From Letharia columbiana (taxonomy: Eukaryota; Ascomycota; Lecanoromycetes; Lecanorales; Parmeliaceae), in the NCBI RefSeq assembly GCF_014066305.1, contig NW_023501083.1, positions 365,001 to 429,000 of the forward strand: DNA of 64,000 nt, read 5' to 3'. This document shows positions 11,901 to 33,895 of this stretch, in pieces. The translations under genes and the position numbers were made by a program. The notes beneath the pieces were generated by a model. It made no database searches, was not told the origin of the DNA, and was given only the letters and a program-made list of their open reading frames with translations. The stretch's first letter is position 1. Every line of letters begins with the position of its first letter.

Positions 11901-13767
11901 ATGCTCACTCCAGTCTACCTCAGCGCCATTGTGCTCGGTGCGTCTCTCCTGGTCTACGTTGCCTACAGAAAAACCACGACCTTGATCGCTTCTCGGAAAT
12001 TCGCACGTCTTCATGGCTGCAAACCCGCAAAGGCGGATCGCCACTGGGATCCAATTTTCGGTCTTGATTTTGTCATCAGCACCATCCGAGCCAGCAGGGG
12101 AAAGTATCAACTCGAGGACCTGTACGAGAGACTCACTCGAATTGCACCAACATTCACGTCGAATGTTCTGGGTGAAACACTGATCTTTACCGATGAACCG
12201 AAGAACGTGCAAGGTGTCCTGGCCACGCAGTTCCCTGATTTCGACGTGGGAGAGCTACGCCGACAGGCCACGGTCAAGCTATTGGGACATGGTATTTTCA
12301 ATGCTGACGGTCCGTACTGGGAGCACTCCAGGGCTTTGATCCGGCCGAATTTTATAAGAAAACAGGTCGCGGATTTGAGGTTAATGGAGCATCATGTTAT
12401 GCATATGATAAGCTATCTTCCCGCCGATGGGACCCCAGTCAACATCCAAGATTATTTCTTTCGTATGGTAAGCCTCCACATTCCGAAATCTCGTCACCTT
12501 TCTGTTTAGTTTTGAAGAATTTCGTTGATCGCTCGTCCGATAGACTCTCGACACGGCAACTGAATTCCTCTTCGGAAAGTCCATCGACTCTCTCCGCCCC
12601 GACGCCACGGCCGAAAGCAAGCAGTTTTCCTGGGCTTTCGACTATGCCCTCGGCGTCATCGCGCAAAAGCTACGCCTCGGCCCATACAACAGGTTTTATC
12701 AAAGTTTCAAGTACAATGAAGCGTGCAAATACATCCACGACTACGTGCGCCCAATCATCCACAACGCAGTCGAATACCGTCAAGCCAAGAACTTACTCGG
12801 CAATGAAGCGGTCCTCGGGAAAGGTGCCGGTGCCGAAGCGAGTATGAAAGCCAGGAAAATCCTCCGTGACGCCGACGCCGAGAAGAGAGCTCTACTCGAT
12901 AAATATGGCGACGCCGATGAAGCAGCCAAGGAAAACGACAACGACGAGCGCTACGTCTTCCTCTACGAACTCGCCAAGCACAGCGGTAACGAAAAAGAAC
13001 TCCGCGACCAGGTCATCAACACCCTCATCGCGGGCCGCGACACCACCGCCTCCCTCATGTCCTCCACCCTCTTCGTCCTCTCCCGCCGCCCCGACGTCTG
13101 GGCCAAACTGCACGCCGAAGTCGCTACCCTCAACGGCAAGCCGCCCACCTTCGATCAGATCAAAGACCTCAAATATCTCCGAAACCTCCTCCATGAGGCT
13201 CTACGTCTCTACCCCGTCGTGCCGATCAACGCCAAGTTCGCCAACAAGGACACCTGGCTGCCTCGAGGCGGCGGCGCGGACGGGCAAAGCCCCATCTTTG
13301 TGCAGAAGGGCCAGATGGTCATCTGGGTCCTCTATTCCATGCATCGCCGCAAGGACCTGTGGGGCCAGGACGCCGAGGAGTTCCGACCCGAGCGGTGGGA
13401 GGGGTTGTTGCCGGGCTTCAATTTCTTGCCGTTCAACGGCGGTCCGAGGATCTGTCCTGGTAAGTCTATCTTTCTTCACTCGAGACGTTCGCTCCCATCT
13501 CTCTCTCTCTCTCTCCTTTCATCTCCTTCTCAGCCTCTCCCTTCTTCTCTGCCCGATTGCGCTATCCTTTCTAGAACCAACAGACTAACATTCCATTACC
13601 CAGGACAACAATTCGCCCTCACGGAGGCCTCGTACACCATCGTGCGCCTCTGCCAGCAATTCAGCAAAATCGAGGTCGTGCCCGGGCAGGAAGATCGCCC
13701 TTGGACCGAGAGTCTGAACCTGACCTGTGCCGTCGCGGGCGGTGTCAATGTGAGGTGCTGGAAGTGA
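11901..13767 (+). CDS. Cytochrome P450, CYP52-type alkane/fatty-acyl hydroxylase
   Basis: A 548-aa microsomal heme monooxygenase in three exons: 11901-12467, 12544-13459 and 13604-13767. It has an N-terminal membrane anchor (residues about 1-25), the I-helix oxygen-binding motif AGRDTTA at 352-358, the ExxR pair E407/R410 in HEALRLYP, and the heme loop [20 protein letters not shown] with ligand Cys493. That loop is assembled across intron 2 and is almost the diagnostic CYP52 sequence. CYP52 enzymes hydroxylate terminal or subterminal carbons of alkanes and fatty acids. Lying next to polyketide synthases expected to make a long alkyl chain, it is best read as the chain hydroxylase of the pathway. 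It converges on the type III PKS gene; tandem AGTCGGG motifs precede it. Primary fatty-acid metabolism is the alternative. Confidence 0.93.
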
Positions 13768-14603
13768 GTCAGTCAGTACGTAAGGAAGTAAGTAAGTAAG
13801 TAAGTGAACGGGGGGAAAAGTTGAGCCATGTAGGAGCTGGCGGGCAAATGCTGGTACAGACTTCGGTGTGGGCCAGCTCTTAGATGGAACTTCAACCATG
13901 AATCAGCTGCGCGGGTCGTGTTGGGGGGATGTTTTGGATTTCATGTGGCGTTTTGTTTCTTTTCAGTATCATGTCCGTAGATGAAGAAGGGAATCGAAAA
14001 TGTGCAATGTCTGTTTGCAGAGTATCCTGGTTTCCGGTTCGTAGCTTCGTCTTCGCTGTGTGAAACGGTTCGCTTTGGTCACGTTTACGTTTACGGAAGT
14101 GACTGAGAGATTGTGGGGGTTGCGCTGATTTTGCGTCGTGGGTAAAGTATGCTAGAGTCTCTATGGGATTTTCAAGGTGCGGGGAGAACTGTCAGTCTTT
14201 GCTCTCACGGGTCATGTAGTTTACATTGCGATTTCTCGACAGATTTGATGCGAAGGATTTGGCAAAAAGGCTTGTGGGTAATAGTGATGGCGTAGAGGGG
14301 TTTATGTGTAATGCTTGCTTTATGGAGTCGCAAGATCGAGGTGGGTTCGATAGTTTGTACTTTCGGTCCTTTGAAAACTCCAACACGATTGTATTCGTAT
14401 GATCTGTCCTAGCTCTCTCTTTACACGATCTATTCCAGCTAAAAAGCAGACGGAAGGTTCCCCATCCCAGTTCTCACATAATCTAGATTCGACTTGTACA
14501 CGCATTTCATTCTGAAAAGGATTGATAGTAAAAGAGGTAACGAACGACAGGACCATCAGAAGATCCGAAGCCACAGACCCTGCGGCTCTCTCGGAGAATC
14601 TCA
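13768..14603. other. Convergent 3' intergenic region
   Basis: This lies between the stops of the P450 (+) and type III PKS (-) genes. It contains a short (AAGT)n tract at about 13783-13805 and otherwise no supported feature. Confidence 0.6.
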
Positions 14604-15997
14604 TCATTCCTCCACATCGTGACGGCAACGCTTCAACATGAACATTTCAATCGTCATCCCGGGACCGAAGCTGCAAGCCATGACGTTCTCTCGGCCCTCG
14701 CCCATCTTCCGCAACTGGTCGAGCACGACCAACACGGTCGGGCTGGACGAATTGCCGTGGTTCTTGTAAACGTCAAAGGACGCGCGCAGCTGGTCGTCGT
14801 GGAGTTGCATTTTCTGCTGGGCACCGTTCAAGATGGCGATTCCGCCGGGATGCAATGCCCAATCGAAGTCTTTCGCTTCCACCGGTTTGCCGCTGGTCGC
14901 GAGCTGGCTGTCGGTGGGGAGGAAGGGCAGCAACTGCTCGAACATGGGGGTGATGGCTTTGAGGGCCAGGTGCGGGACCTCCTTCGTCAGGGTGGCTCGG
15001 AATCCGAAGGGATCGGCCATGAACTCCAATTCTTTGGCTGTGCCGGGCATGGTCCTGGTCTCCCAGTTGACCAACGAGTAGACTGCCTTGTCTTTGGCTC
15101 CGGGTGTGAGCTCGTTGCTGAGGACAAAAGATGCGGCGCCGTCGGAGAAGAGGACGGGCGAGATCTTGGTCTCATCGGGATGTTCCACAACTTCTTCAAG
15201 ATCGCATCGCACATTGATGCTGCAGATCTCGCACGCAAACACCAAGATTCTCGCCGGGCGGCCGCGCACCGAGGCCGATTGAGCCATAGCCGACGCAGCA
15301 CGCATCGCTGAGAGTCCACCGGCACACCCAACGCCGTGCAGTAGCGTCCTGTCGGTTTCCGGCTTCAGACCGAGTTTCTGGGCCACCAAGAGGTCGAAGC
15401 CGGGGTTGCCGGCGTTGGTGCATGTCACTGCCACGATGTGGGTGATGTCGCTGGGTTTGCTGCCGGATTCACGCATGGCTTTCTTGCATGCTTGGACAGT
15501 CAGATCGACACCTGCCTTGCGAAAGAATCTGTCTAGCTCGGAGATCGACGGTGCCACTGAGCGGCTCCAGAATGGATCTTCGTATGCTTTGATGGTTGAT
15601 CGACTCTGGATCATAGTGGTCTGGTTGATGGTCAAGAGCTTCTTGATCCTAGATTCGGGGTCATGTCAGTGCGTATTTGTGCGTTTTAGTTTTCCAATTT
15701 TACTTACCCTGGAGTTTCAAGGTCATACCACCTCTTTACGAAACCTTCCAGCTTGTCCGGGGGGAATTGGAAAGGCGGGTATTGAGACCCCAAGCCAGTG
15801 ATATATAGACCTGGAGTCTCCTTGGACGGCGTGGTGGAAACGGGTGTCGTAGATACATCTTCGTGGACAGTAACACTGTAGTCTTGTTTGATATCCATGT
15901 TTGGTCCTACCAAGGGTAGCTGATAGGAATCACGAGGTTCGAATGTGAGCTGAGGAGCGATACCGCCATTGGCAGTGGAAACTTCAGCTGCTGCCAT
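14604..15997 (-). CDS. Type III polyketide synthase (chalcone/stilbene synthase-like)
   Basis: A 444-aa ketosynthase-fold homodimer-type enzyme that decarboxylatively extends an acyl starter with malonyl-CoA and cyclises the product to a resorcinol or pyrone ring. Two exons, 15997-15708 and 15648-14604, join at a split Gly codon to give TPGIKKLLTINQTT. The catalytic triad is complete: Cys205 in HGVGCAGG, His363 in WALHPGG and Asn396 in NHGNSSS; the His-to-Asn spacing of 33 equals that of plant chalcone synthase. About 60 residues precede the domain, as in other fungal members. The start MAAAEV at 15997 is preferred over upstream frames lacking a good ATG. It is divergent from the HR-PKS across about 1.7 kb. 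Since that PKS has no release domain, this enzyme is the likely acceptor of its chain. The starter cannot be deduced from sequence. Confidence 0.95.
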
Positions 15998-16699
15998 TGT
16001 GATTGGTGATAAAAGGTGCAGTGAAGTAGAAAAAAGATGAATCTCAATATACAATGCTTGTTTACAGAACTAGGTAGTTGATACCAGCACAAGTTCTGGG
16101 ACAGACTTGAAAAAGAAGAATGAGTGAAGAGGATCTAGGTGGCCAAGTGAACGGCCTTGTTGCGGCTTCGAGCTTTTATCGGATAGGTTCATAGCCTTGG
16201 CTGAGCATTAAGGAACCGATGAAACGCTTGGACAGGTGGCGATCATGGATCAGCGTTTGGAGAAACGGTAGAGTATGAGAATGGGAGGATACGAGAAGAA
16301 GTGGGGGTCTAGATCGCAGCATGAGTCACAGACCTGACTTCAATTCTGCACGGATGCAGCGTCGATCCCGGACCTGACTGCAGATAGAATTCACTGTTGG
16401 ATAAGAAATCCCCGTAAGGTGCCGAGCATGGATAAGCGAATGCAGGAACGATAAAGTATGAGAACTGGGCGATAGGAATAGAAGCAGGGTCTAGATGACA
16501 GCAGGGACCCGGACCTAAACTTCACTTCTTAACCTTCTAGACGAATGCCACGTCGACCATAGACCGACTGTCGATGAATGGCATTCCTGTGAACACGTTG
16601 TCCAATCCGCAGCTACATTCCGGTCGCAGCCTGTCCGGGCGCAACGTTGTAGTGGCACAGCGGCTATCTTTTCGTTGAACTGCGGCATGCCCGCAAGCA

Positions 16700-16805
16700 A
16701 GTCTGTATAACTGTACGGCCTGTACGCCTGTAAACTTGTAGACCCGGTAAGCCTGTTAGCCCGTAAGCCTGTAGGGCTATAGATCCGTGAGACCGTAAGC
16801 ATGCA
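16700..16805. repeat. Degenerate tandem repeat, about 10-bp period
   Basis: Variants of a CCTGTAAGC-like word repeat roughly every 9-10 bp through this stretch. The copies are imperfect, so this is an old minisatellite. It lies in the divergent promoter region between the polyketide synthases. Confidence 0.55.
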
Positions 16806-17222
16806 AGCATGTTCTTTGACTCTCTGCTAGGGTCTCTTCCCATTTGTGGCGTTAAGGGAGTAGGATTCATGGTAGACGCAAGGAACGACTTCTGTATTTA
16901 AAATGAATAAATTACCGAAGGTTCCGAATACTCTGAAAGGCTAAAATTTCCAGCTAATGGAAATTTCCAGCTGACACTTCAGGCTAAACTTCATCAGGCT
17001 CTGGCAAACTAGCACTCTTCCCGGCAGTGGGCGGAATTCGGAAGGCGCACCCCCAACAATTTCCATTTGCCTGATATCGTTGGTAGAGAAGCCTATCCAT
17101 CCCTTTCGCCCACGCCGCGACGTTGCCTGATTGATTGTCTTGAAGCCATCCACACCGAGACATGCTGTCTTACTCCTCATACAATTGTCAAATTTATTGC
17201 AACAGTACCACATATACCTCAC

Positions 17223-17229
17223 AGTCGGG
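17223..17229 (+). promoter_or_regulatory. AGTCGGG motif upstream of HR-PKS (distal)
   Basis: A single AGTCGGG, about 450 bp before the HR-PKS start codon. It is the same heptamer as upstream of the P450, MFS and SDR genes. Confidence 0.3.
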
Positions 17230-17411
17230 TCTAGATAACGACTCAGCCACCTAATACCCTCTTACGTGAGAATCACCTACAGCGGATGTAATCACAGCAT
17301 GCACTATTCTATATTGCGACATCTGCCAGTCATACCACCCATTCACCCACCCAACCTTCCAACCGTCCAATCCTCCAACTTGTACACCACCCACCTCTCC
17401 ACAATTGCTGT

Positions 17412-17418
17412 AGTCGGG
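17412..17418 (+). promoter_or_regulatory. AGTCGGG motif upstream of HR-PKS (proximal)
   Basis: A second AGTCGGG, about 260 bp before the HR-PKS start codon, in TAGTCGGGTTT. Confidence 0.3.
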
Positions 17419-17670
17419 TTTGCCCTTTCACTGCGGCTTACCACAATTATGCTTATCGTGCTCGCTTCATGCTTCCAGGCAGGAGCGCATCAGATGCTCT
17501 TGTACCGTTCTGAGCCATTGAATCTCCGTTGTAGGCCTCCCTTAACTTTACGTTGTATCTCCTTCTTCTTCGCCTGTCCTTTACCCTATCACAGCATATT
17601 CTCTTGATATTCAACAATCATTGACTTGCCCCGCCTTGCTCCCACTCGTTCCCGTCCCCTTTTCCCTAGT

Positions 17671-20600
17671 ATGTCTCCAGGAATCATTCAAGAGCCTAAC
17701 GGGCATGCCAATGGCTTTTCCAACGCTTCCTCTAATGGTGTTGATGCCCACATGAATGGGACCACGAATGGGAACACGAACGGACATTCCGAACCTACAT
17801 CCTCTTTCGAGCCAAACGGGCTTTCGGATGGTGCTTCCAATCATGTTGTCGAGCCGGTGGCAATTGTTGGCATGGCCATGCGACTTCCTGGTGGTGTTCA
17901 CGATGCCGAGGGTTTCTGGGATCTCCTCGTCAATAAAAGGAATGGCCAATGCCGTGTGCCAGCCGATCGCTACAATATCGATGCCTGGTACAAACCGGGT
18001 AAAGCGGGCCATGTCGGCACACAGTATGGATACTTCCTGGAGGATCTAGATCTGGCTCACATTGATGCCTCCTTCTGGTCAATGACGAAGCACGAAGCGG
18101 AGGCTATGGATCCACAGCAAAGATTGATCTTGGAGGTCGTGTACGAATGTCTGGAGAACGCTGGGGAAAGGAACTGGCGGGGGAAGAACATCGGCTGTTA
18201 CGTAGGTGTCTTTGGAGAGGACTGGATTGACATGGACTCGAAAGACGTGCAAAACCACCACATGTATCGCCTAATCGGTTACGGTGACTATATTACCGCG
18301 AACCGAGTGTCATATGAGTTCGACTTCAAGGGTCCGAGGTACGCCAAGAACTCGACGGCTTAACGAAAGTGAGCTGATAGCATGTTCTAGTATGACCATT
18401 CGGACCGCTTGTTCCTCCTCTTTGACCGGTCTTCATGAAGCGTGTCAAGCTTTGTACAACGGGGACTGCAAATCAGCCATAGTCGGTGGTACCAACATCA
18501 TTATAACACCACGCATGACGATAGCAATGACTGAGCAGGGTGTCATATCCCCAACTGGGTCCTGTAAGTCGTTCGATGCTAATGCCGATGGCTATGCTCG
18601 GGGTGAGGCAGTTTCTGCCCTGTACATCAAGAAGTTGAGCGACGCTGTACGCGATGGAGATACCATTCGCGCGGTGATCAGGTCGACTTGCGTCAACAAC
18701 GATGGGAAGACGGTGGGTATAACAAGCCCAAGTACGGAAGCCCACGAGACCCTAATCCGCAGAGGCCATCAACTTGCTGGTATCACTGACCTCTCAAAAA
18801 CGGCTATGATCGAGTGTCATGGGACTGGTACCAAGGTACGTGAGAGACTTTCCACACTCGAATGAACCTAAATACTTCTCGTCCAGAGATGCTGATGGCG
18901 CAATACACAGATTGGAGATCCTATTGAGACAAGCGCTGTCGCCAACGTTTTCGGCGAGCATGGTATCTACATTGGCTCGGTAATGTTGTCAGACCTGTGA
19001 GAAACGCTGCAGAGGCTGACTGATTAGGTCAAACCGAACCTCGGCCATTCTGAAGGTGCATCAGGGATGTCTAGTGTCATCAAGATGGTTTTGGCCTTAG
19101 AGCACAAAACCATTCCTCCTAACATCAACTTCAAGAAGCCTAATCCAAACAGTAAGTAAAATACGGATCTGTTTTTGTTTAGGAAAGCTGACTCTTGTTT
19201 GAAGTCCCTTGGGAGCAAGGAAAACTGAAGGTTCCCATCCACGCTACGCCATGGCCCGCAGACCGAGCTGAGAGAGTGGGGGTGAACTCATTTGGCATTG
19301 GTGGAGCTAATGCACACGTGAGTCATTTTCAAAGGTAGCCTGGAACAGTCCTGAAGTCTTGTTTAGGTGTTGCTTGAGTCTGCAGCTGCTCATGGACTTG
19401 ATCGACCGGCTCCGCCAGTTGATGTGAGCGAAGAAAGACCCAACCTTCTCGTATTCTCCGCGACACACCCCGAGTCTCTACGCCGTTTGGTGGACAACCA
19501 CGCATCATATCTAGGCTCTCATACCGACTCCTTGAATGACATGAGCTACACCCTCAGCACTAAACGCCAACCGCTCTCACATCGTGCGTTCTGTATCGCA
19601 TCGGAAGACAGTCCTTTGGAGCCGTCACGAATAAACAAACCTACAGAGACCCCAAATCTGGTTTTCGCTTTCACTGGACAAGGCGCCCAATGGGCGCAAA
19701 TGGGTAGAGAGCTCTTTTCGAAAGAGCGCTCGTTTAGTGACTCTATCAGAGGGCTAGACAAAGTACTTTCGTCCTTGCCCGAGCCCCCGCAATGGACCTT
19801 GGAAGGTAAGAGCTTCGTACACGCCCGCGCTTAGCCTACTCTTGACTAATCAATGTAGATGAAATTCTAAAACCGAAGTCACGGAGCCGCCTCTCCGAGG
19901 CTGAACTTTCTCAGCCTTGCTGTACTGCAATTCAAGTCGCTTTGGTTGATCTCATGACGAAATGGGACATCAAGCCGGCAGGTGTGGTCGGTCATTCTTC
20001 CGGAGAAATCGGCGCTGCATATGCAAGCGGCGTTCTCACAGCAGAAGAAGCCATTCTTGTTGCTTACTATCGTGGACTGGCAACGTTGGGTCTTGGGAAG
20101 ATTCACCGGGGTGGGATGGCTGCTATCGGTCTTGGTCGCGATCAGGTCACACCATATCTTCGCACGGGCGTTATCATCGGCTGCGAAAACAGCCAGAGCA
20201 GTACCACACTGACAGGTGATATTGACACTCTCGAGCAAATCATGGCAACTATTCAAGAAGACCGGCCCGAAGTGCTCGTTCGGGCCCTGCACGTCGAATG
20301 CGCTTATCACTCTCGTAAGTACCCAGATGCTTTGTACTATGTCACATCTTCTCCTCATTGTTTCCCAAACAGCGGCTGATGTTCTTAATGCACAGATCAC
20401 ATGAAAACGGTCGAGGCCAAATATCGAACACTTTTGGGCAAGGCCATTCACGCAAAAGAACCAACTGTACCATTTTATTCGTCCGTCACAGGAGGCCTGT
20501 TGAAGAACGGCGAAATCCTCTCAACTTCCTACTGGGTACAGAATCTGACTTCTCCTGTTCTTTTCCTCTCGGCTGTCAGCGCCATAATCGGATCACTTTC

Positions 20601-23600
20601 ACAACCGCTGGCCTTTTTGGAAATCGGACCTCACTCGGCTCTTGCAGGGCCGATCAGGCAAATAATCAGGAAAGAGGCGAAGGATGCGCACTACGTCTCG
20701 ACTTTGGTTCGGAACGAAGATGCGCTGACGTCTTTGCTGAAGACCGCTGGAGAACTGTGGATCAGCAATGTTGATGTCAACTTTGATTCCGTCAACCCCC
20801 CTGGCGAGTTTCTTACCGATCTCCCGACTTATCCATGGAATTACGATGGCCAATATTGGTACGAGAGCCGTTTGTCGAAGGAGTGGCGGCTGCGGAAGTT
20901 TCCTCACCATGACCTCTTAGGTGCTCGCCTTGTTGAAACCTCTGAGGTCGATCCGACGTGGAGGAACATGTTACGTCTTGATAACGTTCCTTGGATTCAA
21001 GACCACGAAATTGCTCAGGACATCTTACTTCCAGCTGCTGGTTACATTGCTATGATCGGTGAGGCTATTAGGCAACTCACTGACTTAGAAGATTATACTG
21101 TCAGAGCCGTCGACTTCATATCGGCGCTTATCATGAACGAAGGCAAACCCGTTGAAGTTCAAACACATCTCCGTAAGGCTCGCCTTACTACTACGCTCGA
21201 TTCCGAATGGTACGAATTTTCGATTGCCTCGTTAAACGGTACAACATGGATCAAGCATTGCGTTGGTCAAGTCAGAGGAGGAGCTGAGTTCAAGTTGCCG
21301 GTACCCACTATAGAGCCCTGTCAGCGCAAGGTTCCGACGAGCACTTGGTATCGTGTCATGGCCAGATTTGGCCTCAATTATGGTCCAAGATTCCGCGGCC
21401 TGTCAGAGATCAGTGCACACGTGTCAGAACGAAAAGCTGTGGCCACACTGAACGACAGCCTCGGAGAGAAGGAAACTCCATATCAACTCCACCCAGCCAC
21501 TCTCGACAGCTCTTTCCAACTGTTCAGTTGTGCAGCCTTCAACGGAGTCGGCCGCCTGTTCACCAAGTTATCAATACCCACACACATCGAAGAGTTTTAC
21601 ATCAAGCCTGCAAAGGAGAGTATCGCTATCCAAGCGGAGGCAGAGTCTTCCCCCACAGGGACTCTAGCAGGAAACCTAGTAGGTGTATCCGCGGGTGAGC
21701 TCGTGATGAACTTGAAAGGTCTCAAGATGACTCCGCTTGGCGACAATAATGAGGGTCAGAATGATGATCCCCATGCCGCTGTCGAGTTGGAGTGGAAGAG
21801 CGATGTGAACCTACTAGACGCAACCCAACTCATGCGTCCTGCCAAAGATATCACGAAATGCCACCTTCTTGTCGAAAAGCTTGCCTTGGCTTGTATGATC
21901 GAGTCGATTGTTCAACTACAGGGTGTGCAGACTACTCATCCACATCTTGACAAGTTTCGCGCTTGGCTCGATACAAGACGAGAGATGGCTATTGGGGGTC
22001 AATATCCAAACATCGATGACTGCGCAATGATAGCAGGATTGGATAGTACGCAGCGAACAAACATGATTGAAAATCTCCTCGCTCAATCGCTAGATACAGA
22101 GGCCGCAGCTGTCGCGACCGCAATCCACCGAATCTCGAAGCACTCCAGGGACATCTTTCTTGGCACCACGGATCCGCTGGATATACTGATGGAAGACGAT
22201 ATACTGACCAAAGTATACGACTTCATGCAATTGTGGGATTACACAGATTTTTTCGAACTTCTAGGTCATTACAAACCGGATATGAAGATCCTCGAGATCG
22301 GAGCCGGTACGGGCGGCACAACCAGTACCATCATACCACACCTCAAATCCGCTTATGGGGAGAGGATGTTTGGCTCGTATAAGTACACCGATATTTCCGC
22401 CGGTTTTTTTGTGGCAGCAAAAGAGCGTTTCAAAGATGTCCAAGGACTTGACTACGCCATCTTGGACGTTTCACAGGACCCAATCCAGCAGGGGTTCGAA
22501 CCCGAGTCCTTCGATCTAATCGTGGCGACCAACGTCCTCCACGCCACCCCAAAGCTCAGTGAAACTCTGTCGAATGTGCGGAAGCTCCTTCATCCCCACG
22601 GTCGCCTCTTCCTCCAGGAACTGGACCCCTCGACGAGGTGGATCAACTATGTCATGGGCGTTCTCCCTGGATGGTGGCTTGGTGAGGACGATGACCGACC
22701 ACTAGAGCCATATGTCAATCCTGAGAGGTGGGACAAGGAGCTCAAGAGCGCTGGCTTTGGAGGAGTCGATGCAGTTGCGTATGATGGACATCTTCTTAAC
22801 AACATCATTGCCATGCCAGCCCGGGAGGAAAAGTCAAAACGGATCACCATCTTGTCCAGAGGCGAGTCGTCGCAGCATTCTCGAGGAATAATACAGCAAC
22901 TTCGCGAGAGATCTTTTGAGCTAGATTTCTGTACGTTGGATCAAGTCCCCAAACCCGGACAAGATATTGTTTCTCTCCTCGACACTGAAGCACCTTTCCT
23001 CTACTCTGCGACAGAAGAGAGTTTCAGCGCCTTTAAGAGCTTCGTCTCTCATATTCAAGGCGCCGGAGTACTTTGGGTGACCGAAGCAGCCCAGAACGGT
23101 TGCCGTGACCCCAACTACTCCTTGATCCTCGGCATGGCTCGAACAATTCGCACGGAGTTTTTGATGGATTTCGCCACTCTCGAGCTAGAAAGTTTTGATG
23201 ACGCAGCTGCATGCAAAGCTACCGCCGATGTCCTACAAGAGTTCCAGCACCGCGTTCGCGACCAAGACAATGATCCTGTCCTCGAATATGCCTTCTCGGA
23301 TGGAAGTGTCCAAGTTGGTAGATACCATTGGGTATCAGTATCGAAAGAACTCCTGTCCGCGAAGCACCACTCTTATCCTAGGAAATTGGAGATTGGTAGG
23401 CCGGGCATCTTGCACACACTTGCTTGGAGACAACAAGAGCCCTTCGATTTGAAAGGCGACTTTGTCGAAATAGAAACCCGGGCGGTCGGACTAAACTTCA
23501 AGGTCAGTGCATCTTTGCTCTGTGTAAGTTTGTGTGTGTACACGAAATAGCTGACTTTAATCAAAGGACGTCTTGATGTCAATGGGAATTGTAGATCTGG

Positions 23601-25966
23601 TGGGTCGTGGACTCGGATGTGAGAGTTGTGGAGTTGTAAGTGCTTTCCGAGCAACATCTTTCCATGTTCAGATACTTCTTGAATCATATCATACGGCTCG
23701 AAGGTCTCATATCTTGCGACTGGAGTGCTGACACCACATTTTAAGGTCAAGAGGGTTGGGCCTGAGGTCAAGCATCTCAAAGTAGGCGATCGAGTCCTCT
23801 GCTGCACCGATGGATCCTTTTCGACTACTTGGTCCATGAGCGAACTCTTTTGCGCAAAGATGTCAGACAGCCTCAGCTTCGTCGAAGCAGCTACGATTCC
23901 TCTCGTCTACGGTACAGTCATCGCTGGCTTGATGGACTGCGCGAAGCTGTCCAAAGGACAGGTATGTCACATGCTGATTATAGGGATATCGTTCATGCTA
24001 AAACCTTATCCAGACTGTCCTCATTCACTCTGCTTGCGGTGGCGTTGGTATAGCTGCTGTTCAAATAGCAAAGATGATAGGAGCTGAAGTAAGCGACCGA
24101 TTTCACTATTCTCTCGAATAGGTACTAACGCCGCTTCCTGCAGATCTTTTGTACTGTGGGCAACCAAGAAAAGGTTGATTTCCTTATGCAAAACTTTAGT
24201 ATACCCCGGAACCGCATCTTCAATTCGCGAGACACAAGCTTCTTGCGAGATGTGCTTAGGGAAACCGGCGGCAAAGGAGTAAATGTGGTCCTTAACTCAC
24301 TTTCCGGCGAACTACTACACTCATCGTGGAAGTGTGTTGCTGACTTCGGAACCATGGTCGAAATTGGCAAACGAGACTTCATTGGAAACGGAAATTTGGC
24401 AATGAACCTATTCGAGAACAACCGATCTTTTATCGGTCTTGATCTGTCCCAGATTTGCTTTTACCGGCCAAATGCTATACATGAGTAAGCTACGCCCTTT
24501 CTATCGCTCTACTGTGTGTTGCTGACAGTTGATAGCCTTCTTCGTCGGGCAATGGAGTTTTATGAGCAGGGCTACATCAAGCCTATCACGCCCATGAAAG
24601 AATTCGAGGCTGCCCACATCGAGGATGCCATGCGTTACATGCAAAAAGGTCAACATATCGGGAAAATTGTCGTCACCTTCCCCAAAGACCCCATGGAGCT
24701 GGAGGCAACGGCAGATCCAAAAGAGTTAGTCCTTCGTCCCGATGTGTCGTACCTGTCCATTGGGGGTCTTGGCGGTCTGGGTCGATCTATCGCATCCTGG
24801 ATGGTCGAGAAAGGCGCTAGACATCTAATCTTCTTTTCACGGTCTGCCGGCTCTGTGACCAGTGAGGACCCTTACATCAAGGAATTAGCGGCCCTTGGAT
24901 GTTCGGTCCAGACATTCTCTGGTAGTGTTTCCAATCTGTCAGACGTCAAAAGGGTCATTTCCTCGGCTGCAAAACCTATCGCTGGAGTACTCCAAGCTTC
25001 CATGGTCCTCAGTGTGAGTAATTCTTTTCGTAGCTATCAATTTGCTTTTGACCTGACGTTTCTTCCCAGGACGCTGCATTGGGTGAGATGACCTTCGAAC
25101 AATGGCAAACCGCTCTTCTGCCAAAAGTACAGGGCACATGGAATCTGCACGAAGCACTACTGGCGCAGAAGCAATCACTCGATTTCTTCTTCCTCTTCAG
25201 CTCTGTCTCCGGAGTAGGTGGGCAATGGGGTCAAGCAAACTACGCAGCTGGCAACACCTTCCTCGATGCTTTTGTACAATACCGTCACTCACTTGGCCTT
25301 CCCGCGTCAGTCCTTGACATCGGTGCCATGGAGGACGTGGGATACCTGAGTCAAAACAGCGGCATCCTCGAAGCACTTCGCGCCACCTCCCTACACACGC
25401 TCCATGAGCAAGATCTCCTCGATTCCCTCCAACTCATGATCGATCGCTCGCTTCCTGCCCCTCAATCTTCTCCAATGAAGACGGCCCGTTACGTCAACCC
25501 AAGCCAGGTCGCCATCGGTGTCCGCTCCACACTCCCTCTCTCCGCACCAAACAATCGCACCATCTGGAAGAAAGACCCGCGTATGGCCGTATACCGCAAC
25601 CTCGAATCCCTCAGCGCCACCAGCGCGGCTTCCTCCGGCAACGATGAAGGCCTCAAGCAATTCCTCCGCGACGCGAGCAAAAACCCCGCACTCCTGGACC
25701 TCGCCCCTTCAATCGAATACCTAGCCAAGGAGGCGGGCACCACGCTATTCGGCTTCATGATGCGCAGCGACGAGGAACCCTCCATGGACGTGCCGCTCGC
25801 GAGCTTAGGCGTCGATTCGCTCGTCAGTATCGAGTTGCGCAACTGGTTCCGGCAGAAGGTCGGGGCCGAGTTCACGGTCCTCGAGGTGGTGAATTCGAAC
25901 AGCATCACCCATCTGGGCGAACAGGCGGCGGCGAAGTTGAAGGAGAAATTCCAGGCTAGACAGTAG
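17671..25966 (+). CDS. Highly reducing type I polyketide synthase (KS-AT-DH-cMT-ER-KR-ACP)
   Basis: An iterative synthase of about 2498 aa. Fourteen exons fit in phase: 17671-18338, 18391-18835, 18911-18979, 19028-19151, 19205-19317, 19367-19805, 19859-20314, 20396-23502, 23567-23635, 23746-23961, 24014-24088, 24144-24484, 24536-25013 and 25070-25966. KS runs from about residue 61: Cys230 in TACSSSL (created by splicing), His366 in HGTGTK, His401 in NLGHSEG. AT from about 572: GQGAQW and Ser666 in GHSSGE. DH from about 943: His975 and Asp1142 in HPATLDSS. cMT: SAM loop LEIGAGTGG at 1404-1412. ER from about 1775: [12 protein letters not shown] at 1908-1919. KR: GGLGGLG at 2117-2123 and Tyr2258. 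ACP: Ser2450 in LGVDSL. All catalytic residues I looked for are present. No thioesterase, reductase or acyltransferase follows the ACP, so release must be in trans, plausibly by the type III PKS. The N-terminal 60 residues are an Asn/Gly/Ser-rich linker. Confidence 0.97.
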
Positions 25967-26621
25967 GCTGCCGACGATAGATGGATTACCGTCCTACACC
26001 TTCAAAGCGCCTCCAACGCCTTGTATTTACCTACTGTGGCTATCTGCTCGTTGGCGCTAGCGAGGTCTCTTGATACGCTTCCAGCACGGAGCGATTCCGG
26101 CCCTCCGTGCTGTGCATCACGAGACTGGCCCGTTTCGTTTCATCGATCCAATTTTTGTGTCTGTCGGGACTTCATCGCTGCTTCTGCGTGGATCTGTTGT
26201 AAGGGAGTCGGTATTAGATAGGCGTCTGGAATATATAGAAACGATATCTAGACTGAGAGTCTGAACCATTCATTCATGCATTGATTTTCCCGCTCCTTTC
26301 TTTCTATCTTTCTCTCTCTCTCTCTACCCACTCGGATGGAATTTTCTAGTATCCATCGACCGTCGATCTCCCTCAGCATAAGAGTTTTATATCTTCTACT
26401 CGCTATATCCTTCACCCGTACACACATACGTACGTACCGTATCGATATATATCTTTCCCCCCGCATGGATCGTGCTCGCATGCAGGTGGATGAGCTGGCT
26501 CGAATCGGTGGTTTGCCCCAACTCGCCCGAATTTCCGCCTCGCGGGATGAGGGAGGCTTTTGCGCTGGCTGCGATTGCTATTTGGTCACTTGTTCACTTG
26601 CTCAACTTTTTCCTTTGTTCT

Positions 26622-26700
26622 TTTTCGGTCCCTTTCCTTTCCTTTCCTTTCTTTTCCTTTCCTTTCCGCTCCTTTCCTTTCGTTTCCCCTTTTCCTGTCC
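26622..26700. repeat. (CCTTT)n pyrimidine microsatellite
   Basis: The plus strand is a long run of CCTTT/CCTTTT units, with a (CT)n run a little upstream at about 26306-26324. Pure purine/pyrimidine asymmetry is evident. Confidence 0.85.
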
Positions 26701-26825
26701 CTAAATTCTTCTAGGGGATTCTTTCCCCTTAGAACTCCGCTCCACCACACACCACAAGCATCAAACCCCTTACGTATATACATCACTTGGAGTCTTGCGT
26801 CGTGGGACCGTGTCCGCTTTGGATG

Positions 26826-27180
26826 ATCGGTGGTGCGACGGGTCGGGATTGCGGTTGGCTGGATGGGGTTGGCTGGATGGGGTTTTTGGCTGGAGTTGGT
26901 TGGGGGGTAGGGGTTTGGGGATGGTGTTGTGGGATTGTGAGTGTTGGGTTGTTGGGGTTGTTGGGGATCGTTGGGGTTGGGTGGGGGGTGGGGTGGGGGA
27001 GAAGAGAAGGGGAGGAGAGGAGACGCTGGAAAGGAAACCCGAGGGCTGGATCTGAGTCCTTGTCTTTTTTACATACGTGGGGTATATGGGTAGGTAGGTG
27101 GGTGGGTGGGGTGGAAGGGGATACTTTGTGTCGCGTCTTTGTTGTGCGTTTTGGGGTGGGGGCGGTGTTGGGCATGACGC
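26826..27180 (+). repeat. G/T-rich tract with many G-runs
   Basis: The plus strand is dominated by G and T, with numerous runs of three to seven G at short spacing (for example around 26935-27000). These could fold into G-quadruplexes. It lies between the convergent HR-PKS and MFS genes. Confidence 0.7.
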
Positions 27181-27390
27181 GAATTGAAGTTTGAGTGAAT
27201 TGATAGCGTTGGAGGTATATATGGAGGGATATCCATGTCTATAGTAGTATCTCTTACGCCTGTGTACGCTCTGGATGCATTATTAAAAAAAAAGGATATG
27301 CCCGACACACGACGGAGGTTTAGGGAAATGAGATGCTAGTGACATGGAATCGAAGCTAGATGACTATCCTTGCTCCTTCTGATCCATCGG

Positions 27391-29335
27391 CTATTTCTTC
27401 AACTCCGCTGTCTCAACCGGGGTTATGTCGTCGGCGGCGACGTCTGTTTCACCCGTTCTGACCGCACTGGAAATATCGTTCGAGACATCCTGATTGAACG
27501 CACCTGTATCCTTCTCAACACCGACCACAGCACCAGGTAGCGCGTCGGCGGCGGCTAGTTCAGGATCTCCGCCCGCTTCCTTGATCTTTTGGTTCTTCTG
27601 CTCGTCGAAGCCTTGCTCCGTGCTTAGCTTTTGATTCAGGTCGTAATGCTTGATGAAGATCGTAGTGAAGAGGGCAAGACCCGCCAATCCACACATGAGC
27701 GCCCAGATGGGGCGGATGCTATGCGACAAGGCAAGTCTGAGGATCGCTTTCCGCGGATCTGAGTTCGGCATGGCGTTGATTTGGCGGATCAGCGACACCA
27801 CGTCGACACTGTACGACGTGGCAGAGCCTGATAGGGAAGGGTAGCTCGCCAAATTTGCGGCCATGCGGTTCTGGAAGACGACCCCACCGATGGCGACGCC
27901 GATGGTTTGGCCGAAACAGCGGAAGAAGGTGAACATGGCTGCAGCGATGGCGATGTCTTTTGGCGGGGCGGAGGCTTGGATGGCGAGGGCCATGGCGGGG
28001 AAGAGTAGGCCGATTCCGATGCCGGAGACGAGCATGAGGAAGACCCAGGCTGGGATGGTCGTCGAGGGGGAGAGGATGTAGAGCAGGCCGGAGCCCATGG
28101 TGGCCAAGACCCAGCCGACCCAGAGCGCCCAGCGGTAGTGACCCGTTTTGGCAGCGACAACGCCGACGATCATGGCGCAAGGGACGACGGTCAGAGATTG
28201 CGGGAGCGCAGAGACGCCGGCAAGGACTGGGGTGAAATCTTGCGCGCCTTCGAAGAAGAGAGGCATGTAATAGAGGATAGACCATAGGATGATGCCGTGG
28301 ATGAAGGTGAGGAAGTAGGCGATGTTGGTGTCTTTGTTTTTGAAAATTCCGAGAGGGAGGAGCGTGTGGGTCGCAAGCTTGGCTTCCCAAATGACAAAGA
28401 CTGAGAGGCCGAACAAGCCGATTATAATGGGAACGAGGGTGTGCCAACTTGACCAGGCGTACATGACGCCGCCCCAAGTGATGGCTATGAGAAAAGATGT
28501 TGATGAGCCGAGGAAGATGACAGAGCCGACGTAGTCGATTTCGCGAAGCTTTTGTTTCAGAGTGCGTTTCCGACTCTCGAGTTTAAGAAAGGCAATGATG
28601 CCGGCGAAGCCGATAGCCACGATGGGCAAATTGAGATAAAAGATCCAGCGCCAGGCACCTGCTTGGGCGAGGGCACCTCCAATCAGAGGACCGGACACGC
28701 TACCGATGGCCCAGACGATACTGATGAGAGCAAAGTAGTTGCCTCGCTCGCGGAGGGGCACCATATCCGTGATGAGGATTTCCGTGAGAGCGATAATACC
28801 TCCCCCGCCGGTACCTTGGATGGAACGGCCAACAAGCATCATGGTGAAGTTCTTCGACACGGCGCAGACAATGGAGCCGACAGTGAAGAAGGTAAGGGCT
28901 ACGAGAAGGAGGGGGCGACGACCCCATAGGTGGGAGAAAGCGACGAAGTTAGGCTGCCAGACGGTGGAGGTCAGCAGGAATGAGGTTCCGGCCCAGAAGG
29001 CTTCAATTGCATTGCCTTTGAGGGCGACGGTGATGACCTTTGAGCATGTTAACGGGTAGGACGGTTATGATGGTTGATTGATCACATGATCAGACGATAA
29101 GGCTTACCGGTAAGGCTACCGAAACGATGGTGGCATCTAAAGCGCAGGCCAGATTGACAATGGCGATTGAAGTGAAGGCAGATAGAAGCCGCCATCCTGG
29201 CTTGAATTTCTCTATCTCTTCTGAATTCGAGTTCAGCTTTCCCAATGGCTCAGTCGTTTCATCTACTTTTTCTGGGCCCACCGTCTCCTGCTTGGTTATC
29301 TCTGAGCCCGCCGATGTCTCCATTTCCGTTGACAT
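27391..29335 (-). CDS. MFS drug/metabolite exporter (DHA2, 14-helix type)
   Basis: A proton-coupled plasma-membrane exporter of the major facilitator superfamily, 624 aa in two exons (29335-29108 and 29037-27391). The ATG at 29335 begins a hydrophilic N-terminus; the first helix leads into LDATIVSVALP, the DHA2-family signature, which is interrupted by the intron. Motif A appears as SHLWGRRP (111-118) and the antiporter-type loop as GSVSGPLIGGAL. About 14 hydrophobic segments follow, and the last about 80 residues are a hydrophilic acidic tail. It ends facing the HR-PKS stop, and its upstream region carries AGTCGGG repeats and a CGG-N12-CCG palindrome. Export of the cluster product or self-protection is the likely role; the substrate cannot be read from sequence. 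Confidence 0.93.
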
Positions 29336-29922
29336 TCCACAGGCTGTGCTGAAACAGGTTTGGAAAGGGGAGGGAGAGTCAAGCCAACGGGCGGGCAGGG
29401 ATTTCTCTTTCTTCAACCGCCAAAATGAAAGAAGAAGAAAAAAGATATGAAGAGCAAAATGAGTAGAACGACAGTCAACGAGCGTCTAGAATATTGAGAG
29501 GAACCTGCCTACAGTGTGTGCCAGCTTGTTGCAGGCTGACTCGGACGAACTATCAAACCGACTCCGCAGAGTTTGCCCGAAGAGCGGAATCTAGCTTTTC
29601 ACAGCTAGCTCCATGCGGGTCGGAGGGGTGATTGAATCTTATAAGGTTCGGGACCTAAAAGGCGTAGGTGTGCTTGGCACTCTTTTCTGACAGGTGTACT
29701 ACCTCACTAGTGTCTTGGCGAGAACATCCAGTGGCCTAGAGAATCTCACCTCATCTTACTTACCATGCCCATCCACCCTCTTCGTAAATCTGTTGGACTT
29801 GACCGCCATTTGTCAGTCAAACAAACATACACAGTCCCTGATAATGGAATCAGCGGACTCGGGATCATGCTCACGACACCACTTGTCAGAACTCTTCTAC
29901 TCCTGCCTTTGTAGTCCTCGCA

Positions 29923-29949
29923 AGTCGGGCTCAGTCGGGCTCAGTCGGA
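29923..29949 (+). promoter_or_regulatory. Three phased AGTCGG(G/A) repeats upstream of the MFS gene
   Basis: Copies at 29923-29929, 29933-29939 (AGTCGGG) and 29943-29949 (AGTCGGA) are spaced exactly 10 bp apart, one helical turn, about 590 bp upstream of the MFS ATG. The unit AGTCGGGCTC recurs in the SDR upstream region. Confidence 0.5.
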
Positions 29950-30229
29950 CGCGCTACTCCCTTTTCCAAGCTCGGAATCCTTGCCCAATTCGTACCAATT
30001 GTCTGACTCATTTGCGCTTACTACTCTTCCATCTCGGGCCAGCTCTGCGACCCCTCCCTTGTTTCAAGAAGGATTCCTCCTGAAATGTATCGCTTTCTAC
30101 GTGCGTGCTTAGCGTCCCTTGTAGCCTCGAGGCTTGTGTTGACACGTCTGTTGATTGGCATGCCAAGGGAATCTGGATATGAGCGGCTGCAGGGTTGGCC
30201 CTTGGGGTCGGCCTAGAAGAGGAGTCATA

Positions 30230-30247
30230 CGGTGCAAATTTGCACCG
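30230..30247. promoter_or_regulatory. Perfect 18-bp palindrome CGG-N12-CCG
   Basis: CGGTGCAAATTTGCACCG is a perfect palindrome. Inverted CGG triplets 12 bp apart are a classic recognition layout for dimeric fungal Zn2Cys6 regulators. It lies between the MFS and SDR genes; a near-identical site lies upstream of the SDR. Confidence 0.55.
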
Positions 30248-31278
30248 CTATCACTGCCGGCACTACGTACCGCCGACGCCGTTCTGCGAGGGAGGAAGTG
30301 CACCTGGTGCACCGAATATGGCAAGTGATACGTGTACACCCCTTTTTGACACATCGACACCGCCCTCCATGTCCGGGAATAGCTTCCGGGTACGATGGGT
30401 GATAGACCCGACTCGCTCTAGCTTGCATCTTTAGGGGCACTTCCCGGCTCGACACGAATATCTACTGTCCACAATTATCTCCGCCCCCCCGGCGGAAGGG
30501 CTAGTCTGTTTAACATCCAGCGCACCGGAGGATTGTAGGAGCGAGTGTGTACAGGAAAGGGTAAGGATCCTGTTCACGAGCGACGCACTCTGTAGGTAGC
30601 AAGACCACCGCATTTGGCGCACTCGAGACGACGCCTCGGCCCGGAAACAGCACCCGGATGTGAGGTGGGTGTCGATGTATCAAAAAGGAGTGTATACGTA
30701 TCACATCCGCAAACAAAGCGGTCAATCTATTCTATGAGTGTCCGTGAGTCAATTCGCATCCGCGCTACCATCTAGGACATGGTTCGAGTACTCACTCTAC
30801 ATACCCTACCGGCACAAAAATCTACCCTACGTCAGGGGCGCGAAGTCAGTTGTGTTGAGGGTGGGATGTGAAGCAGGTTGACCGTCTGGTGACGACGAGA
30901 CATACACTCAAAAATTTCAGCATGTGATCTGTAGTCTTGGCTGCGGAGAGCGGCTGTTAGACTGGACATTTTTGTGATCGAGTTTATGGGTGTTGGGGGT
31001 ACAGAGGGTGGTGGAAGATATGATGTGCGAATTTTGCGGCGGTTGATGTCGAGCCAGGTCCTGGCGACATGGTAGTAGAATGAATGTCTTAGCGGAAGAT
31101 TAAAATTTGTTCTATTTCTAAAACTTTGGATTTGCTTGAGGGAAAAAAGGGCGGCATGCACGGTCTTGCTGTAGACCGGTCAAAGCGAACTGCAAGCGAA
31201 AACCCTCCTTAAGATCTAGACACCCGCTTCAGGTGTCTCAAACCTTTGACCACCACCGGAAACACGGAGGAGTCGGCG

Positions 31279-32445
31279 TCACAGGTACGGTTGGACCTGT
31301 TTCTCGCTCCACGCCCAGAATTCCGCCGCACGTCCCGTCCCGCCTTCGCTTTTAGACTTTCCGGCGGCCTCGATATCCTTCCGTATACTACTGAAGCGGC
31401 CCCAGGGGATGACTAAAAATCGCCATGTCAGCATGGCGCAGGGCAAAATGGACCTTGGACGTACTCCATGCGCCTGAATTTTTAAGCGTAACCTTGGGGG
31501 ACAATCCGGCGAAAAGTTCGGTGTAGGCGCCATACATGGGAGGGTGGAGGAAGAGGTTGAAGATGGAAGCTCCGACGCCGGACATGTGGCGCTGGAGCTC
31601 CGTTTTCAGATAGCCTGGGTTCAGAGCCTGCACGGGTCACCGGTAAGCCTTGACGAGCCCGCAGACAAACGACGTCTTGCACATACCACGCTGAGGACAC
31701 CGTCGGCTTGGTGCCGCTTGGCGAGTTCCTTGCTGTACAGTACGTTGCCGGCTTTGCTGACACCATACTTGTACCAAGCTGATTTATCCTCTTTGTAATC
31801 GAGATTCGTCATGTCAACCCCTCCTCCCTTAGGCGACATCATTTCTGCAGCCGACGACCCCAGCCAAACCACTCTGACGCTTCCTCGCGGTGCCGTTTTG
31901 GCAGTCTCGACCAGGAGAGGTGTCAGAAGTTTTGTGAAAAGGAAAGGGCTGAGACAGTTGGTTCCAAGCTGGGCCTCGTAATTCTGTTTCGTTTTCGAGC
32001 CTTGCGGGGGGATCATCACTCCGGCATTGTTCCACAACACATCGAGACGGGTTTCTTGGGCGAGGAATGCCTCGGCGGATTTTTTTACCACCATCAAGTC
32101 ATTGAGGTCGAGATGTAGGAAAACCAGCTCGCCTTTGCTTTTGGGGAAGCTGGCTTCGATGGATGCTATGGCCTTGGAGGCTTTCTGTTCCGAGCGAGCT
32201 GCGATCCACACCTTCGCATTGTGCGCATAGAGGATCTTTGCGAGCTCCAAGCCGATGCCTGCGGCGCCGCCAGTTACGAGAAAGACCTGTAGAGCTGTCA
32301 GTGTGACCGATTTGCGGCTGGCGGGACGACGGAAAGGTGATGATGGATATGAAGGAGATGAGTCTCGCACCTTGCCTGCCTGGTCTGCAAGGTCTTTCTC
32401 CGTGAACTTGGGAGCAGGCGGGAAAAGTTGGCTGATCTGGCTCAT
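31279..32445 (-). CDS. Short-chain dehydrogenase/reductase (WW-domain-oxidoreductase-like)
   Basis: An NAD(P)H-dependent SDR of 323 aa in four exons: 32445-32371, 32286-31687, 31627-31465 and 31412-31279. The Rossmann cofactor loop is TGGAAGIG (30-37). NNAG follows at 111-114, the catalytic Ser lies in WLGSSAAE (about 169-170), and the YxxxK pair is Tyr199 and Lys203 in YKYGVSKAG. The C-terminal part contains the family's NPGYLKTEL and ends FWAWSEKQVQPYL. The length matches fungal retinol-dehydrogenase/WWOX-like SDRs. Its upstream region holds two AGTCGGG copies and two CGG-N12-CCG sites, the densest regulatory block in the window. It likely oxidises or reduces a hydroxyl or keto group of the cluster product; substrate unknown. 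Confidence 0.92.
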
Positions 32446-32594
32446 TGTCAATGTTCTGGATTGTGCAATCGTTCTGTCTAAACTTCGAACTAGATCAACG
32501 CAGTGTGATTCTAAAGTTCGTCAAGCAAAAGAAGACGGTGAAGGTTGCTACGTCATGCCGAGGCTTCGCACCTGCGCTTTCTTTATGTTTGCGC

Positions 32595-32611
32595 AGTCGG
32601 GCTCAGTCGGG
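32595..32611 (+). promoter_or_regulatory. Two phased AGTCGGG repeats upstream of the SDR gene
   Basis: AGTCGGG at 32595-32601 and 32605-32611, 10 bp apart, about 150 bp upstream of the SDR ATG. The surrounding unit is identical to that at 29923-29942. Confidence 0.5.
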
Positions 32612-32627
32612 CTCTTAAAGAAGTAAA

Positions 32628-32645
32628 CGGTGCAAAGTTCGGCCG
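32628..32645. promoter_or_regulatory. CGG-N12-CCG site, imperfect copy
   Basis: CGGTGCAAAGTTCGGCCG keeps the CGG/CCG ends at 12-bp spacing but has a degenerate right arm. It starts 32 bp before a better copy. Confidence 0.45.
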
Positions 32646-32659
32646 AAGGAGGAGGAGTA

Positions 32660-32677
32660 CGGCGCAAAGTTGCGCCG
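32660..32677. promoter_or_regulatory. CGG-N12-CCG site, near-palindrome
   Basis: CGGCGCAAAGTTGCGCCG has 8-bp perfect arms around a 2-bp centre, and fits CGGYGCAA-N2-TTGCRCCG together with the site at 30230-30247. It lies about 215 bp upstream of the SDR start. Confidence 0.55.
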
Positions 32678-32979
32678 AAGTAGAATGAAGGCTCCCTAAT
32701 TCATCACCAGATCAATCTCTTTCTTGAAAAGTGTTTGATCACAATGAATGTGGCTGTAGAAGAGTGCCCCAATACTGATTCTTATTAAAAAAGATGACCA
32801 GCAAACATGTATTGCCTACGGGAGGCCTTTTCCTGCAATATCATTTTCTTACGATTTGCTGACGACGGACCCCCCAAGATAAGCTGTTAAGCTGACGCGA
32901 AGATTCTGATCCGAGCACAGCCTTGGGTCTATCCTTTAGTCCACGTACTCCCAGGAGTTCCATTCCAAACTGACCAACC

Positions 32980-33895
32980 TTAAAGACCTGCTAACCTCCT
33001 CATACCAAGATTCGATATCGTCCGACCATCCGCAAGTACCCCCGCGCCGCTCAGCGGCTTCCCGTCGTTCATGGCCAAGTCAACCAGCACTTTCCCGAGC
33101 TCTCTGGTCGGACTAATGAAACCAGGATTGACAGTTCTCAAAATTGTGAACACGATGGGGTACCCAACAGCTTTACCCGCTGGCTTCAGCTTCGGAATCC
33201 ATCCGTGAATCTCCTCATGGAACTTTGGATCCACCCCAGCGGGACGGAGGGAATAGACTTTCAAGCTCGCATATGCCGGCTCGGTGCTAAGTGCTTGTAA
33301 TTGAGCTTCGATGCGGCCTTTGACTCTACCAAAGAAGGGCGTAAAACGTCCGGGTGTCGTAGTGGCGCCTTCGCCTGTTAGAAAGGATGCGCGTCAGTAA
33401 GCAGGGACAGCAAGTCTGAATAGATGGAGGATTCCGGGAGCTTGGACGATGCACGAGATAGGTCATCATTATTACCCGAGACGTAGACGAAATTGAAAGA
33501 CTCTGACAGCGAGGCGAACGCTTTAGCGGCAGCGAGTGGGTATGATACCACAATCTCTTCGTAAAACCTACGGTGTAGAGCTCGTCATCAGCACGCGCCC
33601 AATGTCGATCCGTCAGGATTGTAGGAGAGTCATGCACCTACTCCTTGCTCACATCATTGACGCTAACGCCCAAGGCCCAGACACAGCCCGTGGCACCTTT
33701 GAGCTGATTCAGGACCTCAGTTGGGTACTGGTTGAAGTCGGTATGTAGTATGGTTTTGACCTTGGGATGACCTTCAGCCATCGGGACAGGTCGACGGCTG
33801 AGGATCGACACCGTGGTGACCAGGTTGTTGGTAAGCATCTGGTGGAGGCAGGCAGAGCCTACCAGACCTGTGGCGCCGGTGAGGATGAGATGCAT
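32980..33895 (-). CDS. Rossmann-fold NAD(P)-dependent reductase (NmrA/HTATIP2-like atypical SDR)
   Basis: A 246-aa protein in three exons: 33895-33642, 33567-33476 and 33374-32980. It opens directly with the dinucleotide-binding loop LTGATGLVG (residues about 5-13), then SRRPVP after the second strand, as in atypical extended SDRs. The middle exon gives EFYEEIVVSYPLAAAKAF and FVYVSG. The last exon gives GRVKGRIEAQLQAL and SLRPAGVD, typical of the HTATIP2-like group. A classical YxxxK pair is not evident, so catalysis is uncertain. It lies downstream of the SDR on the same strand and may be a tailoring enzyme at the cluster edge; no AGTCGGG or CGG-N12-CCG site was found in its own upstream region. 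Confidence 0.85.

Follow-up and report, generated by a model that had tools for sequence, protein, structure and literature searches.

What could a lichen fungus make with a highly reducing type I polyketide synthase (HR-PKS) that lies beside a type III polyketide synthase (type III PKS) and a cytochrome P450? This question is raised by a gene cluster of Letharia columbiana within a stretch of 64,000 nucleotides (contig NW_023501083.1, positions 365,001 to 429,000; hereafter the window, whose numbering is used unless another contig position is named). The three core genes are adjacent (11901-25966), as in the soppiline cluster of Penicillium soppii, and the Letharia cluster is a lichen branch of this known kind of HR-PKS/type III PKS/P450 pathway. 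By analogy, the best explanation of the whole is probably (about 0.73) that a chain built by the HR-PKS starts the type III PKS and that the P450 oxidises the product. The pathway kind is in print already, and the cluster itself very likely too.

The three core genes

The HR-PKS gene (17671-25966, plus strand) contains 13 introns and encodes 2498 amino acids. On its exon pieces, Pfam detected all of the ketosynthase (KS), acyltransferase (AT), dehydratase (DH), C-methyltransferase (cMT), enoylreductase (ER), ketoreductase (KR), and acyl carrier protein (ACP) domains, with the ADH_N part of the ER scoring below its own cut-off. KS, AT, DH, ER, KR, and ACP, with cMT optional, define a fungal highly reducing PKS, and all were present; the protein is 99% identical across 100% to HO133_003441 of Letharia lupina. 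The ACP match ends at residue 299 of the last piece (304 residues), so no release domain lies downstream. The intact KS-AT-DH-cMT-ER-KR-ACP order with nothing after the ACP is thus as an earlier interpretation of the bare DNA (the sequence-only reading) had described it. Fungal HR-PKSs ordinarily lack a release domain, and its absence was rejected as a special feature of the cluster. By eye, the motifs of the HR-PKS look intact, among them TACSSS of the KS and GHSSG of the AT.

The type III PKS is encoded on the opposite strand (15997-14604, minus strand; 444 amino acids; one intron, 15649-15707). Exon 2 scored 79.1 bits for Chal_sti_synt_N and 73.4 bits for Chal_sti_synt_C (Pfam cut-off 27). 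The Cys (GVGCAGG), His (ALHPGG), and Asn (HGNSSSP) of the catalytic triad are intact and align at the equivalents of MsCHS 164, 303, and 336; this numbering is taken from PMC12559476, and its placement on the alignment was made in this analysis. With both domains and the triad, the protein belongs to the type III PKS superfamily, and the full triad noted in the sequence-only reading was borne out. An ORAS-like fold is predicted for the Nephromopsis ortholog, which is 87% identical to the window protein and was modelled in its place; ORAS (PKSIIINc) of Neurospora crassa and AthePKS of Aspergillus thesauricus share this fold. ORAS also has the same triad but differs at positions 197 and 265, where it carries M and V and the window protein N and A.

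The protein has a 62-residue N-terminal extension (15812-15997, minus strand). Such extensions measure 56-67 residues in the full-length type III PKSs of the lichen branch, against 9 residues in the soppiline enzyme PspB. In the model of the Nephromopsis ortholog, pLDDT stays below 50 over residues 1-57, which are predicted to be disordered, for which reason a folded docking domain was rejected; the extension may, on this model, be a disordered docking peptide.

The P450 gene (11901..13767, plus strand; introns 12468-12543 and 13460-13603) starts with the ATG at 11901 and encodes 548 amino acids with a haem motif and a Pfam match above cut-off. The splice model matches HO173_009354 of L. columbiana with 100% identity from end to end. 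Among the 120 matches listed, P450s from Gyalolechia, Letrouitia, Xylographa, and Loxospora are 71-73% identical. Beyond the closest lichen and metagenome matches listed, identity falls to about 38-47%, and many of these relatives are named alkane hydroxylase, CYP52A12, or CYP584G1; values are 42-44% for filamentous-fungal P450s named 52A12 and 38% for a Sungouiella protein. Naming within the CYP52 family goes by at least 40% identity to true members. The protein is a P450 of the alkane-hydroxylase type, and judged by these identities the earlier assignment to CYP52, like a placement in the CYP52 clan, is approximate.

Linkage and co-inheritance in other fungi

For each core protein, the 120 matches listed (a capped list clustered at 90%, so that a partner missing elsewhere carries no weight) were compared by contig, a shared contig being inferred from equal size together with the same source or species. 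The comparison covered 118 type III rows (P0001 and P0052, without a contig, were left out), 120 HR-PKS rows, and 76 of the 120 P450 rows. The sequence-only reading had raised the case of a type III PKS conserved elsewhere without the HR-PKS; instead, the two share a contig in 12 of the 118 type III rows. Locus tags were shown for nine of these pairs, and the genes are neighbours in all nine: the tags are consecutive in Xylographa, two Polycauliona, Oculimacula, Aspergillus bombycis, Colletotrichum jinshuiense, Chaetothyriales CBS 134920, and Helicocarpus, and two apart in Calogaya. The remaining three pairs come from two metagenome contigs and from Lophiotrema, for which no tag was shown. In five cases the type III PKS lies on one contig with the P450, with consecutive tags in Xylographa, Letrouitia, and Gyalolechia; for HR-PKS and P450 this holds in Xylographa and in Chaetothyriales CBS 135597. 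In Xylographa, all three core genes have consecutive tags.

Trees were built from rows picked by hand out of the 120 matches listed (42 for the type III PKS; 50 for the HR-PKS, using FastTree). In the type III tree, the window falls in a clade of 12 rows (support 100/99) made up of named lichen fungi and four metagenome rows, while PspB pairs with A. bombycis (98/96) in another branch. The HR-PKS tree included 14 labelled rows, namely the window, 12 rows linked to a type III PKS, and one (Chaetothyriales CBS 135597) linked to a P450 only. The drawn root splits the tree into two sides with support 100, and all 14 fall within one of them, a side of 30 rows; the group of the window comprises 12 rows (support 100). 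HR-PKSs of the lichen fungi Blastenia, Seirophora, and Pycnora stand elsewhere in this tree, as other members of a large family. Xylographa, the Letharia group, and the Teloschistales rows branch in identical order in both trees. Distances between type III PKSs and between HR-PKSs were correlated over 13 pairs (r 0.89; 0 of 5000 permutations as high), within the lichen branch (7 pairs, r 0.72; 13 of 5000), and among the six pairs outside it (r 0.93; 129 of 5000). The shared contigs and congruent trees indicate that both synthases belong to lineages travelling together, a view that shuffling of linkage labels (see below) did not support.

Of the 14 labelled HR-PKS rows, 13 carry an intact SAM motif in the cMT, the exception being a metagenome row. 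Because of this, the cMT is, to judge from the aligned motif, ancestral in the linked HR-PKSs. It was rejected as the mark of a new product class, and the earlier suggestion that an added cMT points to a different product fails, there being no addition.

Related clusters are known from several fungi. For soppiline, the reducing PKS supplies the starter and the P450 oxidises the polyketide released by the type III PKS (PMC6985275). The kinship proposed for the Letharia genes stood up: PspB is 53% identical to the window type III PKS over 86% of the query, the trio is likewise adjacent, and the order of steps proposed for PspA, PspB, and PspC would apply. This comparison was made with PspB, as PspA of P. 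soppii is absent from the 120 HR-PKS matches listed. The clusters differ in the type III branch and N-terminal extension described above, and in the short-chain dehydrogenase (SDR) and second NAD(P)-binding gene that lie near the Letharia trio. By its description, the scirpilin cluster of Fusarium scirpi, in which the type III PKS FscB depends on a type I PKS, is also similar (PMC12559476).

The combination had been called uncommon. This holds in so far as 67 fungal type III PKS genes lie alongside another core gene and 474 do not, but the pairing with a reducing PKS has already been described as ancestral in two clades (PMC6985275). There, as in the window, the two synthases are adjacent, often in opposite directions and mostly with a P450. 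A cyclopropane-synthetase domain is frequent in clade 7 of that study, whereas none was seen in the window frames scanned.

Evernia prunastri, Pseudevernia furfuracea, and Letharia share the family Parmeliaceae. For the first two, the text on Figure 4B of a 2019 paper describes an R-PKS/chalcone-synthase cluster with a reducing PKS, a P450, dehydrogenases, transporters, and a type III PKS (PMC6337363). Matched by this text description, it is very probably the same cluster as that of the window. Literature searches (scirpilin, Letharia, Nephromopsis, lichen type III or reducing PKS) yielded, in the excerpts returned, no recognised study of the cluster beyond this passage, nor of its product. 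The Letharia genes extend a known, sparsely characterised two-synthase logic to lichen fungi, in which fewer than ten metabolites have been linked to genes (PMC9964704).

The proposed pathway and its alternatives

In the pathway we favour, the HR-PKS would iteratively build, on its ACP, an acyl chain that is reduced and probably C-methylated and, having no release domain, would hand it to the neighbouring type III PKS. The cysteine of the latter would take up the chain as starter, malonyl units would be added by decarboxylative condensation, for which His and Asn are needed, and a ring would be closed, at a guess most likely to an alkylresorcinol and less likely to an alkylpyrone. The P450 would then hydroxylate the alkyl chain. 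We further guess that the SDR may oxidise or reduce the hydroxylated position and that a pump of the major facilitator superfamily (MFS) exports the product; chain length and the role of the second NAD(P)-binding protein are likewise matters of guesswork. The analysis itself shows the genes with their intact sites and families, and the joint inheritance of the core trio; the direction of chain transfer and the role of the P450 are inferred from PspA/PspB/PspC and FscB: both PspB and FscB gave product only on co-expression with their own type I PKS (PMC12559476). Kinship and synteny make the core of this pathway likely, as the sequence-only reading had proposed it; the part that treated the cMT as an addition drops out. 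The three adjacent core genes form a small, testable expression set.

Several observations weigh against this pathway. PansPKS, from a type-I-linked cluster, is active without its partner on 10 of 10 substrates tested, and AiizPKS, from another such cluster, is also promiscuous (PMC12559476); linkage is therefore no proof of dependence. Shared species history alone would also yield the distance correlation. Linkage labels were no more clustered than shuffled ones in either the type III tree (500 of 500 shuffles as low) or the HR-PKS tree (101 of 500), the linkage state being known for only part of the rows. Position 197 is most often N in the other type III matches listed as well (68 of 108), so that this residue does not mark linkage. 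In the first DH motif of the HR-PKS, Q stands in place of the usual G; the His of this motif and the Asp of the second are kept, as in all 50 aligned HR-PKS rows, and DH activity is an assumption. Finally, the selected open frames scanned (50 entries) contained no acyl-CoA ligase, thioesterase, or regulator.

The PansPKS result moved weight towards the alternative that survives best, namely that the type III PKS uses an ordinary fatty acyl-CoA, as ORAS does, and that the HR-PKS, a mere neighbour, makes a separate product. Most type III PKSs of fungi can use various fatty acyl-CoAs (PMC12559476), and the ORAS-like predicted fold and the promiscuity of PansPKS and AiizPKS fit such a role. We nevertheless consider it unlikely, given the long co-inheritance of the pair and the minimal or absent activity on their own of XylPKS, AlupPKS2, and CcauPKS, which are tied to type I PKSs (PMC12559476). 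Moreover, a family search of the L. columbiana genome (52,243,142 bases, 161 contigs) located a second, ORAS-like type III PKS (L001, C29:615055-615513), whose pieces are 44.6% and 51.6% identical to the window enzyme; the ER-KR part of the HR-PKS had 55 matches in this genome, none of them on C29.

A silent or decaying cluster that yields nothing in nature is improbable. Lichen PKS genes do outnumber the known substances (PMC9146135), and an inverted repeat lies between the MFS and SDR genes, but all six gene models of the cluster are open with GT-AG splice sites and the HR-PKS is nearly identical to that of L. lupina. A reversed order, with the type III PKS making a small unit that primes the HR-PKS, is very improbable: a bacterial type III PKS has been suggested to make a building block for a nonribosomal peptide synthetase (PMC6985275), yet the HR-PKS exon pieces showed no starter-loading domain, and in the characterised relatives the chain passes from HR-PKS to type III PKS.

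Altered type III synthases of xanthorioid lichens and flanking features

The cluster is real, intact, and mostly ordinary; its oddest relatives form a sister clade outside the window. An alignment of 122 type III PKSs, made up of the window enzyme, ORAS, and the 120 matches listed, contains nine with an altered triad (P0010, P0016, P0023, P0028, P0029, P0033, P0040, P0041, and P0042). In all nine, V, W, Y, S, or F stands in place of the catalytic Asn and the Cys is kept; the His is replaced or lost in five (N or Y aligned). They form one clade in a quick tree of 45 rows (P0032 left out; SH-aLRT 99; a single change, a count that none of 500 shuffles reached), comprising two metagenome rows and the xanthorioid lichens Gallowayella, Polycauliona, Calogaya, Xanthomendoza, and Rusavskia. 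Errors in database gene models are possible, but for the Asn they are unlikely because nine rows agree within one clade. The HR-PKSs of Calogaya, two Polycauliona, and Gallowayella keep their cMT, DH, ER, and KR motifs. No P450 named from the five genera was among the 120 matches listed, although unnamed rows could include one.

The altered enzymes may be decaying or may have become off-loading partners. Another altered triad (H303D, N336S) is mentioned for a major cluster of type III PKSs in fungi (PMC12559476), which may or may not be related to this clade. A more far-reaching idea, which we put forward tentatively and regard as rather doubtful, is that the Lecanoromycete branch is an old, separate HR-PKS/type III PKS lineage making undescribed methyl-branched, oxidised phenolic lipids. 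In the xanthorioid clade, the type III partner would have become a cysteine-only, non-condensing enzyme that takes over or releases the chain of the retained HR-PKS, and Letharia would represent the ancestral, condensing form. Comparison of Letharia, with its intact triad, and the triad-broken lichens that kept the HR-PKS could show whether the type III PKS fold can serve a type I PKS purely for off-loading.

Beyond the core genes, the stretch described in the sequence-only reading runs to the ATG of a sixth gene at 33895, the three flanking genes being putative members of the cluster by position. As had been proposed, an MFS transporter (29335-27391, minus strand; 624 amino acids; one intron, 29038-29107) and an SDR (32445-31279, minus strand; 323 amino acids; three introns) are present, both with Pfam matches above cut-off. 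The gene called a second reductase exists as well (33895-32980, minus strand; 246 amino acids; two introns) and encodes a small NmrA/epimerase-like NAD(P)-binding protein, but the label of reductase is weak, with 18.3 and 16.7 bits against Pfam cut-offs of 27.2 and 20.9. Every NCBIfam match shown was far below cut-off, and Pfam searches of many flanking frames of the window returned nothing useful.

The inverted repeat between the MFS and SDR genes (30325-30704) has 43-nucleotide arms that are 88% complementary and 294 nucleotides apart; it could be a small, MITE-like mobile element. On the same contig as the window, about 43 kb before its first base, reducing-PKS-like gene pieces with 38-60% identity were found (C48:320333-321754).
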